This document shows positions 1,925 through 28,454 of a stretch of DNA of 41,883 bases, piece after piece (within the stretch, counting starts at the first letter, position 1; every line of letters begins with the position of its first letter). The stretch is from a virus: positions 1-41,883 of IMG/VR virus record IMGVR_UViG_3300034198_006958. One strand, given 5' to 3'. The translations under genes were made by a program, and so were the position numbers. The notes below the pieces were generated by a model. It saw only the letters and a list, made by a program, of their open reading frames with translations. It did not search any database and was not told the DNA's origin.

Positions 1925-2458
1925 TTACTCAGTATATCGAGAAAATTTATTACCCGCCTGTCTCATTAGGTACATTGGCCTTCTACGGGCATACACCCCT
2001 TGTCCGTCCCGATCAGCATTAGATCCAGCAACAGCATCGGGGGATGTGTTGGCTTCTACAGTCATAAGAAAGGATCCCCTGATCCTGTCTACGAGTCCGA
2101 CATGAGCCACTCGTTTCTTAGACCGGAAGTATATACCGAACACATCCCCCGACTTCAGGGAGGAGATAGGGACATTGTTCCTCCTCACCTGATCCGGAGC
2201 CCAAGCAGACACAGGTGCTTTAAGGCCCACCAGATGATTAACATAACTGATAAAAGAAGCACAATAGGGAGAACCAAGAGACACCCCAGAAAACCTGTTC
2301 CATGTATCGATATCCTTGGAACGATTGTAGCCTTCTTCACGGACATTCAGGTAGGTCTTGGCTACGTCTATAACCTCATTTCCAGCGGCAAAACTTAGAC
2401 CACAACCTAAAGATTGCGAAGCAAGATATACGAGGATAAAGAGAAGGTACTTAGCCAT
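1925..2458 (-). CDS. Secreted CHAP-like endolysin
   Basis: The 177-residue protein begins with a hydrophobic signal sequence (about residues 4-25, ending FAAG), so it is probably exported by the host Sec system or tethered, unlike T7 lysozyme. The rest reads as a CHAP/NlpC-P60-type cysteine peptidase or amidase: GSPYCASFISYV with Cys66, RVAHVGLVD with His119 and a polar residue near Asn137 forming the expected Cys-His-Asn set. It would cleave peptidoglycan. It overlaps the end of the putative holin gene by 52 nt and is the last gene of a three-gene lysis cassette. The exact bond cut cannot be told from sequence. An SLGCG at residues 16-20 resembles a lipobox weakly. Confidence 0.8.
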   Translation of the reverse strand: MAKYLLFILVYLASQSLGCGLSFAAGNEVIDVAKTYLNVREEGYNRSKDIDTWNRFSGVSLGSPYCASFISYVNHLVGLKAPVSAWAPDQVRRNNVPISSLKSGDVFGIYFRSKKRVAHVGLVDRIRGSFLMTVEANTSPDAVAGSNADRDGQGVYARRRPMYLMRQAGNKFSRYTE

Positions 2459-16786: not shown

Positions 16787-16863
16787 AAGTGGATGGTGTA
16801 AAGGGGTGTCTTTTCAGACGCATAGATGGTTAATCATTCATGTTGGCATTGGTGTGAAAAAGG

Positions 16864-16904
16864 GATTTTGAGTCGGTCGTGTCTACCACTTCCACCATAG
16901 GGGC
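16864..16904 (-). other. Probable attP core: 41-nt fragment of a tRNA-Leu gene (5' half, anticodon CAA)
   Basis: Read on the minus strand this non-coding stretch reproduces tRNA-Leu from base 1 to about base 40: acceptor strand GCCCCTA, the D-arm hallmark TGGTGGAAGTGGTAGACAC, and anticodon loop CTCAAAA (anticodon CAA). Agreement then stops: the 3' side of the anticodon stem does not pair, and no variable arm, T-arm or matching 3' acceptor follows, so it is not a working tRNA. A tyrosine integrase gene lies about 2 kb upstream in the same orientation. Integrases often use tRNA genes, and a 42-bp tRNA-Leu match is known in cyanophage P-SSP7, so this is very likely the attachment core. Confidence 0.8.
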
Positions 16905-16922
16905 GTTGAAATCATTGGGGAA

Positions 16923-17009
16923 TTAGAGACGGGGGTCAATGAATCCCCCCACCTCATGGAGCTTGTGACACAGCGTCTGCCACAGTGCAAGAATCGATAG
17001 ACGTGTCAT
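16923..17009 (-). CDS. Possible 28-residue peptide coupled to upstream gene
   Basis: An ATG overlapping the stop of the 136-codon gene (ATGA) opens a 28-codon frame, MTRLSILALWQTLCHKLHEV followed by GGFIDPRL. It is the last of a chain of genes each joined by ATGA. The amphipathic first half could be a helix. The G5/C5 hairpin seen in this stretch falls within the frame. Function unknown. Confidence 0.4.
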   Translation of the reverse strand: MTRLSILALWQTLCHKLHEVGGFIDPRL

Positions 17010-20381: not shown

Positions 20382-20491
20382 AAAACGAGACACCCTCCCG
20401 CACCAGCACACGCTGGGGAGAGGGCTCCTTTTCCGTTAAACCCAATGAGCGGCTTGGATTTCTCCAACGCGACTCGTGGTTTAAGCGGTCA

Positions 20492-20519
20492 ATGGTAGGG
20501 GGTAGGCATCAAATGTCAA
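20492..20519 (-). promoter_or_regulatory. Sigma70-like promoter upstream of the MarR-like gene
   Basis: On the minus strand a perfect TTGACA (20519-20514) is followed after 16 bp by TACCAT (20497-20492), about 110 bp before the MarR-like start and directly downstream of the tandem repeats. It would be read by host RNA polymerase. Confidence 0.45.
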
Positions 20520-20542
20520 CGTGGAAATGTGGAGGGTGTGAG

Positions 20543-20566
20543 CAAGGACGTAGACAAGGACGTAGG
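20543..20566. repeat. Two tandem 12-bp repeats (CAAGGACGTAG)
   Basis: CAAGGACGTAGA at 20543-20554 is followed directly by CAAGGACGTAGG at 20555-20566. They sit between the promoter at 20492-20519 and the 11-bp array, forming part of a compact control region. Confidence 0.8.
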
Positions 20567-20570
20567 CTTA

Positions 20571-20583
20571 TGACTGTGACTGT
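20571..20583. repeat. Overlapping TGACTGT motif pair
   Basis: TGACTGTGACTGT holds two copies of TGACTGT. The same word occurs twice at 22438-22452 in the control region above the DUF932-like gene, so it may be a shared operator. Confidence 0.5.
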
Positions 20584-20588
20584 AGATG

Positions 20589-20632
20589 GACTGGGTCGGG
20601 ACTGGGTCGGGACTGGGTCGGGACTGGGTCGG
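20589..20632. repeat. Four perfect tandem 11-bp iterons (GACTGGGTCGG)
   Basis: The unit GACTGGGTCGG is repeated four times without a mismatch at 20589, 20600, 20611 and 20622. The spacing is about one helical turn, so a protein could bind all copies on one face of the DNA. It lies in the only sizeable gap between the early operon terminator and the MarR-like gene. It could be an operator array, an integrase/excisionase arm site cluster, or an origin element. Confidence 0.85.
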
Positions 20633-20659
20633 TCAACTAATGTCAGAAATAAAGGCACG

Positions 20660-20692
20660 AAAAATCCCACTAATCGCATGGATCAGTGGGAT
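20660..20692 (-). terminator. Intrinsic terminator ending the early operon
   Basis: Inverted repeat AGTGGGAT/ATCCCACT (20685-20692 with 20664-20671) followed on the minus strand by TTTTT (20664-20660). It lies just after the 31-codon membrane-protein gene and before the iteron region, so it separates the early operon from the MarR-integrase unit. Confidence 0.75.
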
Positions 20693-20713
20693 GATTCTTT
20701 GATGCTTTAACTT

Positions 20714-20809
20714 TTATTTGTTCACTGCTTTAAGTATAAAAAGAAACTGGACAATGATCAGAAGGGAGAGCCCCAGCAAGTCAAAGAAATAGTCACTTGG
20801 CTTTTTCAT
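20714..20809 (-). CDS. Tiny single-span membrane protein, 31 residues
   Basis: The ATG at 20809 overlaps the stop of the Gp88-like gene (ATGA) and opens MKKPSDYFFDLLGLSLLIIV followed by QFLFILKAVNK. One hydrophobic helix (about residues 8-26) is flanked by basic ends. It lies immediately before an intrinsic terminator, so it is the last gene of the early operon. Comparable to the 28-residue membrane peptide at 22655-22741. Role unknown; small early membrane peptides can act on host envelope or superinfection. Confidence 0.6.
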   Translation of the reverse strand: MKKPSDYFFDLLGLSLLIIVQFLFILKAVNK

Positions 20810-22830: not shown

Positions 22831-23501
22831 ATAAAAAAATCAAAAATCTTTTTGGCTTGGCAATAAATTCTCTTGACATCCTGTATCCATGAAGGATGAA
22901 AGCTTATTTGTGTGACAAAGTTTCTTTCTTCGCTTTGTGCTGTTTGCTTTGTGCGACAAGTGAAAAAATGGATAAGGTGGGATTGTGTTGGATTGTGTAA
23001 TGCAATGGAAAATGTAGGAGATAATGAGAGATTGTGCATGATGATGAAAGGCGATTGTATTACATGATAGATTGATGACTCTTAAGGTGCATGAATTGTT
23101 AAGGTGCATGAAGTATTGAAGGATGGAAGGGAAGGGCTATTGATTATGAGTTATCATTATTATTGAGACTGAATCTCAAAAGCAAAAATCGGAAAACATC
23201 AGGACTAACGATGACCCGATGCTTTATTACGATAATAACGTAAAAAGTCTTTTAACGTTCGATGCTCTTTTCTCTTCCTATTGTGTCAGCTTAAAGCGAT
23301 TCATTATCTCCTGCCATGCTCTGTCCGCTTGTCACAATCTCCCGATGATCAGCCTTTTCTGGACTAAGTAGGCCGGTAATCCTATATTAAATCGATTAGA
23401 TAGGGTGCCGGTATCGAAACAATTAGGAGGACGGGTAGGCCACGGGGGGTAACGCCGATGCGACCATGCGTATCAACCCTCTCAGATTTTTCGACCAAAT
23501 T
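22831..23501. other. Non-coding early control region
   Basis: About 670 bp with no convincing gene. It includes the 14-bp direct repeats at 23082-23112, a TTACG/CGTAA inverted repeat near 23227-23243 and AT-rich tracts. In T7-like phages the genome end, host promoters and early regulatory sites lie upstream of the first early gene, so this is one candidate for a genome end. Confidence 0.45.
23082..23112. repeat. Two 14-bp direct repeats (TTAAGGTGCATGAA)
   Basis: Identical copies at 23082-23095 and 23099-23112, separated by 3 bp (17-bp period). They lie about 270 bp upstream of the early promoter and may be protein-binding sites. Confidence 0.75.
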
Positions 23502-23948
23502 TCAAAACGACCCCAGCTGCTTCCTCAGGTACACCGCTCTATACCCAGCATACAGATCAGAAGGGTGGTAAAGCCGAAACCCACATCCGATCAAAGCATT
23601 ACTAGAAGCGCAGTTCATACCCATCACATACGCAACAGCAGTCTCATACCCCAGACTCTTGGCCTTCCTTACCCTGAGCCGTATGAGCCGTTTTTGGATA
23701 CCTTTCCCTCTCCATACCGGAAGGACTCCAGCTCTTGTGAACAGGACTAGCCCCTTGTTGGCTTCTGCCTCACAGGCTCTCATGGCTCCAAAGGCGACAG
23801 GCTTACCCTCAACCCTTGCAATCCACACCCAGCTCTTGCTTACGTCTACCCTCTTGTCCCCTGCAAACAGGAGCTTGTCCAACCTCTTGACCTCTTTGAC
23901 GGTCTTCTCAGGCTGGTTACTAGGAGTAAGCTCAAGTCGAATCTGCAT
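23502..23948 (-). CDS. GNAT-family N-acetyltransferase
   Basis: The 148-residue protein shows the GNAT core: WVWIARVEGKPVAFGAMRAC (beta strands 2-4), TRAGVLPVWRGKGIQKRLIR (acetyl-CoA-binding motif with the R-G-K-G loop), then YVMGMNCASSNALIGCGFRL (Asn and the terminal strand). The substrate cannot be told. It is the most upstream minus-strand gene of the early region; in other phages early acetyltransferases modify host proteins, so a host-takeover or anti-defence role is possible. Confidence 0.82.
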   Translation of the reverse strand: MQIRLELTPSNQPEKTVKEVKRLDKLLFAGDKRVDVSKSWVWIARVEGKPVAFGAMRACEAEANKGLVLFTRAGVLPVWRGKGIQKRLIRLRVRKAKSLGYETAVAYVMGMNCASSNALIGCGFRLYHPSDLYAGYRAVYLRKQLGSF

Positions 23949-24254
23949 GGATCAAAGTAAGGGAAGAGGTCTTCATGAAGTCAAGGCAGAATTAGCCTTA
24001 AAGAGAGAGCTAGAAGAGTACCTTTAATATATTCTTAATTGTACCTATTATAGTTCTTTTATTCTTTAATTAGTTACATTTGACCTCAGTGTCAAAGTAA
24101 ACCCTAGAGTTAGCGTTTAAGGATGATCTAGTAGAAGGAGTATCAAGGAGTGTTTACCCAATCTATATCAATCAATTTCCTTGAAGAATCATTCTCAAGA
24201 AAACCAATTTCCAATTTCCAACCTTGAGTAACCTTCTTCTACACCAATTTTAAT

Positions 24255-24271
24255 TTATAGTAATACTATAA
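24255..24271. promoter_or_regulatory. Perfect 17-bp palindrome (TTATAGTA-A-TACTATAA)
   Basis: Two 8-bp half sites around a single central A, in the middle of the divergent intergenic region. This is the shape of a dimeric repressor operator. Confidence 0.5.
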
Positions 24272-24362
24272 GTATCTTCTTACCTCGCTTCGCTCGGATT
24301 ATACTTCTAGGGAAAAACCAGTCAAGCATATTTTTCTATAAATCTACTCTATCTCCTTAAAT

Positions 24363-24412
24363 TTGGTCATCTTTAGCCCTTCGGGCTTTTGGTCATAATC
24401 AAGGTTGGTCAT
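24363..24412. repeat. Three TTGGTCAT repeats flanking a hairpin
   Basis: TTGGTCAT occurs at 24363-24370, 24389-24396 and 24405-24412. The first two bracket the terminator hairpin exactly; the third is part of an inverted repeat TTGGTcatACCAA. Confidence 0.65.
24371..24390 (+). terminator. Hairpin AGCCC-TTC-GGGCT with T tract
   Basis: A 5-bp GC-rich stem with tight loop (24375-24387) followed by TTT on the plus strand. It would stop plus-strand transcription entering from the left before the HNH-TerL genes, isolating them from upstream read-through. Confidence 0.6.
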
Positions 24413-24507
24413 ACCAATGATAAAGAGAAAAGAGATTTATCAAGCGTTCCTCTTCGTAGAAGATAGTGCTTGAGTGTACTCTTAATATACTTTAATAGAG
24501 ACCGGAA

Positions 24508-25104
24508 ATGATTCAGACCAACCTACAACCAAAGCATAAGCGTGGAGATGTTCGAGAGGACGGCTACATTTTTCGGAAATACAGAAAACGTACCTCAAAG
24601 ACCACTAGTGAAGTAAAGATTTTGGAAGAGTGGGCTTCTCCAGCAGTCTATGAAAGGGAGAAGGAAACCGCTTGTAAACGAGCTAAGGACTGGCAGAAGG
24701 CTAATCCTGAAAAAGCTAAAGCAAGGCTTCGTAAATGGCAAAAGGCGAACCCTGAGAGGTGCAGAGCATTTCGCTATGAATGGCAAAAAGCAAACCCTGA
24801 TAAGCACAAAGAAGCCTCTCGTAACTGGCAAAAAGCCAACCAAGACAAAGTGAACGAGATAGCAGCCCGTAGGAGGGCCAGAGAGAGGCAGACCTCATCA
24901 TCCCTCACCCACGATGAGAAACTCATTTCTAGGGCCATCTACGGGGCTTCCAGACGCATATCTGAGTGCATTGGTATCCAGCACCATATTGACCACATCG
25001 TCCCCATAGCCAGAGGAGGGGCTCACCACCCTTCCAACCTCCAGATCCTTCCAGCTTTGATCAATCACAGAAAAAGCGCAAAACTCGATTTCGTATGCCC
25101 GTAA
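24508..25104 (+). CDS. HNH endonuclease with four 15-residue repeats, next to terminase
   Basis: The 198-residue protein has three parts: a basic N terminus, four tandem 15-residue units beginning WQKAN (Trp62, 77, 92, 107), strongly basic and likely helical DNA-binding, and a C-terminal HNH domain (HHIDHIVPIARGGAHHPSNL, then LINHRKSAK) with the DH, N and H residues in order. It overlaps the TerL start by 10 nt in the same direction. HNH proteins beside terminase assist DNA cleavage during packaging in HK97-type phages, but this could equally be a homing endonuclease. Confidence 0.85.
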   Translation: MIQTNLQPKHKRGDVREDGYIFRKYRKRTSKTTSEVKILEEWASPAVYEREKETACKRAKDWQKANPEKAKARLRKWQKANPERCRAFRYEWQKANPDKHKEASRNWQKANQDKVNEIAARRRARERQTSSSLTHDEKLISRAIYGASRRISECIGIQHHIDHIVPIARGGAHHPSNLQILPALINHRKSAKLDFVCP

Positions 25105-26810
25105 AGAAGACAACCAAACCAACCGTTAAGACTCCTGAGATAGATCCTAGACTCTCTATCTTCAAAAACTTTTTGTTCCTCTGCTGGAAACAGCTGAACC
25201 TCCCTGACCCAACTCCCGTACAATACGACATAGCGGACTACCTCCAAGACTCTCCGAGACGCTTTGTGATTGAAGCGTTCCGAGGAGTGGGCAAGAGTTA
25301 CATCACCTCAGCGTTTGTGTGCTGGAAGCTCTTGATGAATCCGGACATCAAGATTCTCGTTGTGTCAGCTTCAAAATCTCGTGCTGACGACTTCTCAACA
25401 TTCGTGCTGCGATTGATCAACGAGATGCCTGTCCTTCAGCATCTCAAACCGAGGGAGGATCAGCGTAATTCAAAAATAAGTTTTGATTGTGGCCCTGCCA
25501 CCGCTTCCCACTCTCCATCGGTCAAAAGTGTTGGTATCACTGGTATGCTCACCGGATCTCGTGCTGATCTGATCATTGCGGATGACGTTGAGAGCGCAAA
25601 CAACTCCCTTACTCAAGCGATGAGGGACAAGATTAGTGAGTCAGTTAAAGAATTCGACGCAGTCCTAAAACCTGATGGATATATTGGATATTTAGGTACT
25701 CCTCAGACTGAAAACTCTCTGTACAATCGCCTTCAGGAGCGTGGATATAAGTGTCGTATCTGGCCTGCTCGTTATCCAGAACCAGAAAAGGTCTCTGCCT
25801 ATGGAGACACCCTTGCTCCGTTTGTCCTTGAAAAGCTGGAAGCGGATCCAACACTTGTGGGAAAATCCACCGATCCAAAACGCTTTACCGACATCGATCT
25901 TTTAGAACGAGAAGCCTCGTATGGTAGGTCTGGGTTCCAGCTCCAGTTTCAGCTGGACACGAGCCTCTCGGACGCTGACCGATACCCACTCAAACTCTCA
26001 GACCTCATCGTCATGCCTCTCAATCCGACCTCTGGCCCTCAGAAGCTGGTATGGGCAGCTGGGCCTGAGCAGCAGATTAACGATCTCCCGTGTGTTGGTA
26101 TGGCTGGAGACCGCTACTACCGTCCAATGCAGATCTCCACAGACCCTTGGATCGATTACGAGGGATCTATCATGGCTATCGATCCTTCCGGTAAGGGACG
26201 AGATGAGACAGCGTATGCGGTTGTTCACTTCCTTCATGGAATGCTTTTCCTAGCAGCAAGTGGAGGATTCACAGCTGGATATACCGATGAAACTCTACAG
26301 AAGCTTGCAGAAATTGCAAAATTCCATGCAGTCAAGCAGATCATTACCGAGGAAACCTTCGGAAGCGGAATGTTTACGCAGCTTCTCAAACCTGTGCTTG
26401 GTCGTATCTATCCCTGCACCGTTGAAGAAGTGAAAAGCTCCAAGCAGAAGGAGCTACGAATCATCGACACGCTTGAGCCTGTCATGAACCAGCATAGGCT
26501 TATCGTGGATACCAAGGTGATCGAAAAAGACTACCGATCCACTCAACATCTCCCTCCAGAGCAAGCTCTCCGCTATCAGCTTTTTTATCAAATGTCCCGA
26601 ATCACGAAGGAGCGTGGAGCCCTAGCTCAGGATGATCGCCTTGATGCACTTGCAATGGCAGTCGCATTCTGGGCAGAGCGTATGGGTGTAGACGTAGATA
26701 AAGCTCTGGAAGCTGAGAGGGATGCTCTCATCCAAAGGGATCTGGAGGGATTCATGGACAATGTATTCGGACGTAAACCCAAGCCACAAAGCTGGCTTCC
26801 TACTTGGTAA
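25095..26810 (+). CDS. terL: Terminase large subunit (T7 gp19-like)
   Basis: The 571-residue packaging motor has an ATPase domain with Walker A (RGVGKS, residues 63-68) and Walker B (LIIADD, 159-164), then a C-terminal RNase H-like nuclease with SIMAIDPSGKGRDETAYA (Asp363), ITEETFGSG and DDRLDALAMAVAF. The end (GRKPKPQSWLPTW) resembles T7 gp19. It cuts concatemers and drives DNA into the prohead with TerS. It lies on the plus strand, whereas TerS and all other virion genes are on the minus strand. A strong intrinsic terminator follows at 26866-26921. Confidence 0.96.
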   Translation: MPVKKTTKPTVKTPEIDPRLSIFKNFLFLCWKQLNLPDPTPVQYDIADYLQDSPRRFVIEAFRGVGKSYITSAFVCWKLLMNPDIKILVVSASKSRADDFSTFVLRLINEMPVLQHLKPREDQRNSKISFDCGPATASHSPSVKSVGITGMLTGSRADLIIADDVESANNSLTQAMRDKISESVKEFDAVLKPDGYIGYLGTPQTENSLYNRLQERGYKCRIWPARYPEPEKVSAYGDTLAPFVLEKLEADPTLVGKSTDPKRFTDIDLLEREASYGRSGFQLQFQLDTSLSDADRYPLKLSDLIVMPLNPTSGPQKLVWAAGPEQQINDLPCVGMAGDRYYRPMQISTDPWIDYEGSIMAIDPSGKGRDETAYAVVHFLHGMLFLAASGGFTAGYTDETLQKLAEIAKFHAVKQIITEETFGSGMFTQLLKPVLGRIYPCTVEEVKSSKQKELRIIDTLEPVMNQHRLIVDTKVIEKDYRSTQHLPPEQALRYQLFYQMSRITKERGALAQDDRLDALAMAVAFWAERMGVDVDKALEAERDALIQRDLEGFMDNVFGRKPKPQSWLPTW

Positions 26811-26865: not shown

Positions 26866-26921
26866 ATCCCCCTCTTGGTCGTTTTTGTCATGTTTTTCGA
26901 CTGGGAGGGGGATCTCTTTTT
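26866..26921 (+). terminator. Strong intrinsic terminator of the HNH-TerL unit
   Basis: A 16-bp stem (26866-26881 with 26898-26913, three G-U pairs) encloses a T-rich loop and is followed by CTCTTTTT. It stands 55 bp after the TerL stop and should end plus-strand transcription. Confidence 0.88.
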
Positions 26922-27011
26922 ACCTTGCCAACATTTCGGAGTTTCCGAATAGTTCCTCCATTCCTCCTACTCTCCCTTAAAGCGGACTGATCACCCGTAG
27001 GTCTGGGAACT

Positions 27012-27130
27012 CTCGGACGGTGAGGGGAAGAGGGGGTTCTGGTTCCCATAACCAGATGACTCCGTGCTGACGGATAACGGCATATGCAATTCAGCCCTCA
27101 CCGAGAAGGAGTGGTCTCGGTGTAGTCCTT
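27012..27130 (+). ncRNA. Possible structured RNA upstream of a terminator
   Basis: On the plus strand several stems can form: CGGTGAGGG (27018-27026) with CCCTCACCG (27095-27103) closing a multibranch that contains TCTGGTT/AACCAGA (27038-27044, 27050-27056) and TCCGT/ACGGA (27061-27065, 27070-27074). A competing hairpin CACCGAGA/TCTCGGTG (27099-27106, 27115-27122) uses the same CACCG, so two folds exclude each other. An intrinsic terminator follows directly. No known RNA family is recognised. Confidence 0.4.
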
Positions 27131-27174
27131 GGTTGACGGACGAAACCTCCTCGGTAAGAGGAGTCAACCTTTTT
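27131..27174 (+). terminator. Second plus-strand intrinsic terminator
   Basis: GGTTGAC (27131-27137) pairs with GTCAACC (27163-27169), with an inner TCCTC/GAGGA stem, followed by TTTTT (27170-27174). It lies about 210 bp beyond the TerL terminator, so it must serve a separate or read-through transcript. Confidence 0.65.
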
Positions 27175-27524: not shown

Positions 27525-27569
27525 CAATAGAAGTTCACGAGCGGAAACAATAGAAGTTTACAAGCGGAA
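27525..27569. repeat. Two 22-bp direct repeats (CAATAGAAGTT..)
   Basis: Copies at 27525-27546 and 27548-27569 differ at 2 positions and have a 23-bp period. They lie just past the end of the late operon. Confidence 0.75.
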
Positions 27570-27595: not shown

Positions 27596-27615
27596 CTCTC
27601 AGTAGCTCTCAGTAG
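27596..27615. repeat. Two tandem 10-bp repeats (CTCTCAGTAG)
   Basis: Perfect tandem copies at 27596-27605 and 27606-27615; the second runs into the stop of the small HNH-like gene. Confidence 0.65.
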
Positions 27616-27851
27616 CTCTTATCAGCCCGATTAGAACTGGCTGATCTGATCCTCAGGTTACTCCTAGCTCCACTTCCCCCAGCAGACAGAGCCTTCTTGT
27701 GATCGATGTCCTTCCCCTTGAGAGCAGCCTTCCCGTGGATCTTGAGCATCTCCCTACGAGCCTTGTTGCGAAGGACACGCTTACGGACTTGCTCAGGACG
27801 AGCTTGATACTTCTTGTCGTAGGCTGAGTAGACGCGACCCGACTTGCTCAT
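27609..27851 (-). CDS. Small HNH-like nuclease, 80 residues
   Basis: A very basic N terminus (YQARPEQVRKRVLRNKARRE) is followed by KDIDHKKALSAGGSGARSNL and ends ASSNRADKSY. The DH, GG, N and N positions fit a compact HNH fold of the kind found in many T7-like phages as short uncharacterised proteins. It is the last gene of the late operon, next to small terminase. The function could be packaging-related, but this is not shown. Confidence 0.65.
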   Translation of the reverse strand: MSKSGRVYSAYDKKYQARPEQVRKRVLRNKARREMLKIHGKAALKGKDIDHKKALSAGGSGARSNLRIRSASSNRADKSY

Positions 27852-28229: not shown

Positions 28230-28454
28230 TTATCCTTGTGCCACCTTTTTATCCCCAAAGGGAAGCACAACCCCCAGCTTCACAGCAGGGTGATCGGTCT
28301 CCACGTTGACGATGATGTTGTTGTCTTTTAGAAGAGCCCTTGCCACACCGAGATCAGCAGGGGTGGCTTCCCCTGACTCGATACGAGCAAGAAGGTCTTC
28401 AGCCAGCTTGACTGAAAGTTCTTCAAGAATGTCTGCTTTGGATTTGTTGCTCAT
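28230..28454 (-). CDS. terS: Terminase small subunit (T7 gp18-like)
   Basis: The 74-residue protein matches the small-terminase type of T7-like marine phages: LSVKLAEDLLARIESGEATP, then DLGVARALLKDNNIIV, and a C-terminal VVLPFGDKK. It recognises DNA for packaging together with TerL. Position after the fibre and holin-like genes equals T7 genes 17-17.5-18. GGAGGA precedes the start, although it also encodes the end of the previous gene. TerL itself is on the other strand. Confidence 0.75.
   Translation of the reverse strand: MSNKSKADILEELSVKLAEDLLARIESGEATPADLGVARALLKDNNIIVNVETDHPAVKLGVVLPFGDKKVAQG

Follow-up and report, generated by a model that had tools for sequence, protein, structure and literature searches.

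The window, meaning the whole 41,883-base stretch of viral DNA analysed here, encoded T7-type proteins for virion structure and DNA packaging (portal, scaffold, capsid, TTPA/B, internal virion proteins, fibre N-domain, TerS and TerL) and a single-subunit RNA polymerase (RNAP; PHROG 414, 1.5e-192). The RNAP, primase-helicase, DNA polymerase, exonuclease, integrase, portal, scaffold, capsid, tail, internal virion protein, T7-type fibre and TerS genes all lay on the minus strand. Just two genes were convincing on the plus strand, an HNH endonuclease of the endonuclease VII type (24508-25104; PHROG 1035, 5.6e-15; Pfam HNH, 2.5e-5) and the large terminase TerL (25095-26810; PHROG 38, 1.5e-112; Pfam Terminase-T7_RNaseH-like, 3.5e-38), the end of HNH overlapping the start of TerL by 10 nt. 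The coordinates and profile matches agree with a first-pass annotation of this DNA, which had placed HNH and TerL on the plus strand and every other convincing gene, including TerS, on the minus strand. Judged by gene homology, the window phage is a T7-like relative that departs from the plan of that group and is no typical member, as the unidirectional gene arrangement of the Autographiviridae was broken by the plus-strand HNH and TerL.

Along the minus strand the map position of TerL was the usual one, with TerS before it and the early genes after it; its direction alone was odd. TerS (28230-28454, minus strand; Pfam DNA_Packaging_2, 6.6e-12; PHROG 891, 5.4e-10) was separated from TerL by orf27609 (27609-27851, minus strand; PHROG 4590, 3.5e-20), the last gene of the late operon, which is convergent with TerL and which by synteny lies directly after TerS in relatives. 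On the other side, the first gene after the early promoter encoded a GNAT-like acetyltransferase (23502-23948, minus strand) with a co-directional orthologue in L165, one of the unflipped relatives described below. TerL was full length, and an alignment of three relatives showed the Walker-type FRGVGKS, IADDVES and the acidic nuclease residues to be invariant. Together with an amino acid identity to the L001 TerL that exceeded the nucleotide identity (78% against 72.6%), this intact length and these invariant motifs make TerL look functional.

An identical 87-bp overlap was present at both ends of the record, inside TTPA, so the contig closes into a circle. The contig ends gave no sign of the physical genome ends, and an overlap internal to TTPA is compatible with a linear genome with direct TerL/early terminal repeats. 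Two other non-coding stretches were observed on the minus strand. The gap from the integrase to the early genes contained a run of CGACCCAGTCC repeats (20412-20805), and the 5′ half of a tRNA-Leu(CAA) gene (GCCCCTATGGTGGAAGTGGTAGACACGACCGACTCAAAATC) lay between the RNAP gene and its upstream gene (16787-17005). This fragment, which was not conserved in relatives, is a probable attP and might point to the host.

Orientation of TerL in related phages

A survey of 230 TerL loci, counted as loci and not genomes since some came from one contig, revealed 186 that were co-directional with their recognisable neighbours, 31 that were undecided and 13 that were opposite. Twelve of these 13 belonged to lineages with the flipped order; the remaining one, L083, was on a bacterial contig and was called opposite from a single weak integrase match. 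Among the best 60 TerL records in GenBank, 56 were also in the portal or primase lists, and in all 56 of these testable records the portal or primase strand was that of TerL. No report of an inverted TerL in T7-like phages was found in the open-licence literature.

The flip was present in six contigs of three lineages, namely the window and five IMG/VR contigs. Four of the latter (L001-L004) were metagenome records approximately 99.5-99.9% alike, with a TerL 78% identical to that of the window, and the fifth was a 40.7-kb contig (L134/L157, referred to as L134) with a TerL 74% identical. The gene order common to the flipped contigs was early genes (minus), TerL (plus), orf27609 (minus), TerS (minus) and fibre (minus), only part of which was visible in the short L002 and L004. 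The capsid, lysis and RNAP genes of L134 were likewise opposite to TerL.

The first-pass annotation had left open whether the lineage had inverted the segment or the assembly had wrongly joined a repeat-bounded one. A lone metagenomic contig could indeed be wrong, but the same order and conserved junctions recurred in five contigs from separate metagenome records and two further lineages, so an assembly artefact is rejected as having a negligible probability. The flipped TerL is real, inherited and lineage-specific. As for bounding repeats, no strong ones flanked the region; a weak inverted pair (24128-24147 and 27803-27822, 80% over 20 nt) could be taken for the arms of an invertible segment caught in one of two states. 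This is very improbable: the pair is short, imperfect and chance-like, one arm lies within a gene, and all six contigs were in a single state.

Separately, a non-coding stretch after the GNAT-like gene (23399-23501) had parts (GGGGGG ... CCCTCTCAGATTTTTC) that were kept in all three flipped lineages, and it might function in control or in packaging.

History of the inversion

The nearest co-directional relatives, L163-L165, encoded a TerL 70-73% identical to that of the window. In L164 the fibre gene, orf28457, TerS, orf27609, two genes, TerL, lysis genes, promoter and early genes all pointed one way, the early promoter (TTGACG-18-TACAAT) being located in an AT-rich stretch after the lysis genes. 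The order TerL, amidase-like gene, promoter (TTGACA-17-TACAAT) and GNAT orthologue was also unidirectional in L165. In L163 and L164, TerL overlapped the upstream late gene and an endolysin gene came next. The arrangement of L163-L165 is likely to represent the state before the flip.

The early-directed sigma-70-like promoter of the window (TTGACT-16-TATAAT; 24298-24325, minus strand) is orthologous to those of both the inverted and the non-inverted relatives; the other flipped genomes had TTGACT-16-TACAAT and TTGACG-18-TATACT. As this promoter has the same direction in flipped and unflipped genomes, it did not turn, and on this comparison TerL flipped where it stood, with orf27609 on one side and the early promoter on the other. 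TerL is now divergent from the early genes and convergent on the late operon, with a non-coding gap of 690-800 nt. An endolysin-like lysis gene was found between the capsid and scaffold genes of the window (1925-2458, minus strand), and that of L134 also adjoined the capsid gene (72%), whereas in the unflipped L163 and L164 a distant endolysin homologue was behind TerL. This difference in placement indicates a more extensive remodelling of the right end.

HNH was absent from the other flipped genomes L001 and L134. The inverted unit therefore did not include it, contrary to the earlier description of a flipped HNH-TerL cassette, and HNH is an addition specific to the window. Most simply, it would have entered the TerL unit after the inversion, joining it just upstream of TerL. 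HNH was also considered as the cause or a fixed part of the inversion; this was ruled out, as the relatives are flipped without it.

In a first TerL tree the flipped TerLs formed one clade (SH-aLRT 100). When L163-L165 were added, these co-directional sequences fell among the flipped ones as an unresolved trio, and the best topology of the enlarged tree implied two orientation changes. A single origin of the flip had a p-AU of 0.38 on the enlarged tree and was recovered in 43% of bootstrap trees, so that one inversion of TerL is not rejected by the phylogeny. The identities of the terminase genes were mosaic: TerL was 82% identical between L001 and L134 and 78% between the window and L001, and the corresponding TerS identities were 74% and 96%. 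TerS and the integrase, unlike TerL, grouped the window with L001. As TerL is mosaic relative to these two genes, it has likely been swapped among these phages by exchange.

These mosaic identities, the unresolved trio and the two changes on the best tree would also be expected if orientation had changed repeatedly, or if TerL had been swapped between flipped and unflipped phages, in place of one inherited inversion; the HNH beside the window TerL could drive such local exchange. We consider this unlikely, though it deserves to be kept in view, because one clade is not rejected and because the junctions and the positions of the early promoter and lysis gene were alike in the flipped genomes wherever they could be compared. 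The preferred history is a local inversion of TerL in the ancestry of a small temperate T7-like lineage, which would then have been retained.

Transcription of TerL and the convergent gap

In T7-like phages the timing of gene expression is tied to gene order, and TerL is usually the last gene of a long late transcript. The first-pass annotation had proposed that the inverted TerL would need its own promoter in the AT-rich region upstream. Both L001 and L134 carried another sigma-70-like promoter, which faced TerL (TTAAGA-16-TATAAT and TTTAAA-18-TATAAT, 10/12 matches each), back to back with the early promoter. Alignment with these two genomes placed the equivalent position of the window at 24333-24362 (plus strand), where the sequence was degenerate (TTTCTA-18-TTAAAT, 7/12); the proposal is thus borne out in the two relatives and weakly in the window. 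Promoter-like matches in the region were not above those of shuffled sequences for the window and L134. Since they were not clearly enriched, the weight is on the conserved position and not on number.

No recognisable phage-RNAP promoter motif was found anywhere, nor any repeated intergenic motif. Since no such motif was identified, the inverted TerL may still be late, driven from an unrecognised phage-RNAP promoter in 23949-24507 and timed with the other late genes. T7-like late genes use phage promoters, which are short and lineage-specific, and the host-type promoter directed at TerL is degenerate in the window. A candidate site for such a promoter is TTATAATTGGTCAT, conserved upstream of TerL in L001 and L134 (TTAAATTTGGTCAT in the window). 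No copy of the candidate was detected in front of other late genes, however, and in both L001 and L134 it can be read as a good -10 box, paired with a -35 box at 16-18 nt. Late expression of this kind is possible but on the unlikely side. The inference judged likely is that a host-type promoter gives TerL a transcript of its own, independent of the late phage-RNAP one. TerL would then have left the late phage-RNAP transcript to be read from its own sigma-70-like promoter, diverging from the early promoter, and would be made early or constitutively, apart from TerS and the structural proteins. Taken as a whole, the reading in which TerL was inverted locally, was kept that way and is read from its own host-type promoter apart from the late transcript is given a probability of about 0.6.

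The first-pass annotation had also described an isolating hairpin in front of the two genes and two terminators behind them, of which the first terminator was the best founded. This 16-bp terminator-like hairpin followed by a T run (26866-26913, plus strand) had a z of -4.3 and compensating changes in L001, and the TerL transcript would stop there. The second (GGTTGAC..GTCAACC followed by TTTTT; 27131-27169, plus strand) was weaker (z -1.7). Weaker too was the small hairpin AGCCCTTCGGGCT between the promoter position and HNH (24375-24387, plus strand; z -0.75 for the stretch), which was conserved in L001 and lost in L134. The convergent gap also contained a tandem pair, CAATAGAAGTTCACGAGCGGAA and CAATAGAAGTTTACAAGCGGAA, with a spacing of 23 nt (27525-27569).

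Between the two terminator-like hairpins lay element A (26941-27103, plus strand), a structured RNA with covariation that was also present in L134 (10605-10770, minus strand) and in the otherwise unrelated phages L158 (1319-1484), L159 (2201-2366), L160 (2433-2595) and L161 (1354-1517). The L134 copy was approximately 95% identical to those of L158 and L159 over 140-149 nt. Across the six sequences, 13 base pairs had changed on both sides, compared with a mean of 4.9 in shuffled controls (0/500 as high) and 1-2 for slid structures. Many of the pairs are G-U when read from the plus strand, where the complement has A-C; this indicates that the RNA is that of the TerL strand. Element A matched no Rfam 15 family at the gathering threshold; the one hit at threshold in the gap sequences was a tRNA-Thr, in L134. 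GenBank phages contained no match to element A or its neighbours, and neither L001 nor any of the unflipped relatives searched had element A.

Element A was next to ParB-like genes in L159 and L160 and a methyltransferase gene in L158, and in L159-L161 a conserved protein of approximately 800 aa without a known family was encoded beside it. A role as a packaging RNA was rejected, as its neighbours in L158-L161 are not terminase genes; its tie to TerL may be merely positional. A second common hairpin element (GGGGGAGGCAWTGAGGGG ... AGCGACCTGAWCCTCCTCCGACC then T's) was observed in L001 (12017-12112), and stretches like it were downstream of element A in L159, L160 and L161. Further short pieces were common to these gaps, which have the appearance of an exchanged non-coding island. 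tRNA-Gln genes were upstream of the island in L159-L161, and the tRNA-Thr of L134 was inside it. A more elaborate reading, in which an early TerL unit driven by host RNAP runs into an RNA island that affects packaging or TerL expression, with the RNAs exchanged between unrelated phages, is speculative and improbable.

Comparison with known systems

What is new here is an inverted TerL at its usual position, a variant of the known T7-like genome plan. That the flip has been kept suggests that synthesis of the packaging motor can be uncoupled from that of the other late proteins. The lineage offers a natural experiment on the importance of TerL timing, with its unflipped sister lineage as a clean before-and-after comparison. 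A separate lead is the covarying RNA of the new gap, which unrelated phages also have.

Members of the T7-like family are said to share "a common unidirectional gene arrangement" (PMC9145550), and in LUZ100 TerS and TerL are part of the structural cassette (PMC10134795). The pelagiphages HTVC019P and HTVC011P, the Roseobacter phages CRP-114 and CRP-227 and Pseudomonas phage LUZ100 are T7-like phages with an integrase or a close TerL. They resemble the window in the kind and order of their genes, namely those for the single-subunit RNAP, primase-helicase, DNA polymerase, portal, scaffold, capsid, tail, internal virion proteins, fibre and TerS, and in a TerL at the genome-end position, 56-63% identical to that of the window; unlike in the window, TerL was co-directional in every known T7-like phage record checked (56/56). 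L163-L165 are closer, sharing the orthologous early promoter (L164 and L165), the GNAT gene (L165) and TerS with orf27609 (L164), but their TerL is co-directional, with an endolysin gene (L163 and L164) or an amidase-like gene (L165) behind it.

An HNH gene adjoining TerL is known from the lactococcal Skunavirus, where it encodes HrdP (PMC12724721). HrdP is present in every genome, between TerL and portal, whereas the window HNH was found in one of three flipped lineages and upstream of TerL; its absence from L001 and L134 means that it is not a constant partner of TerL as HrdP is. Being of the endonuclease VII type, upstream of TerL and in a single flipped lineage, it is closer to a free-standing homing or accessory gene.
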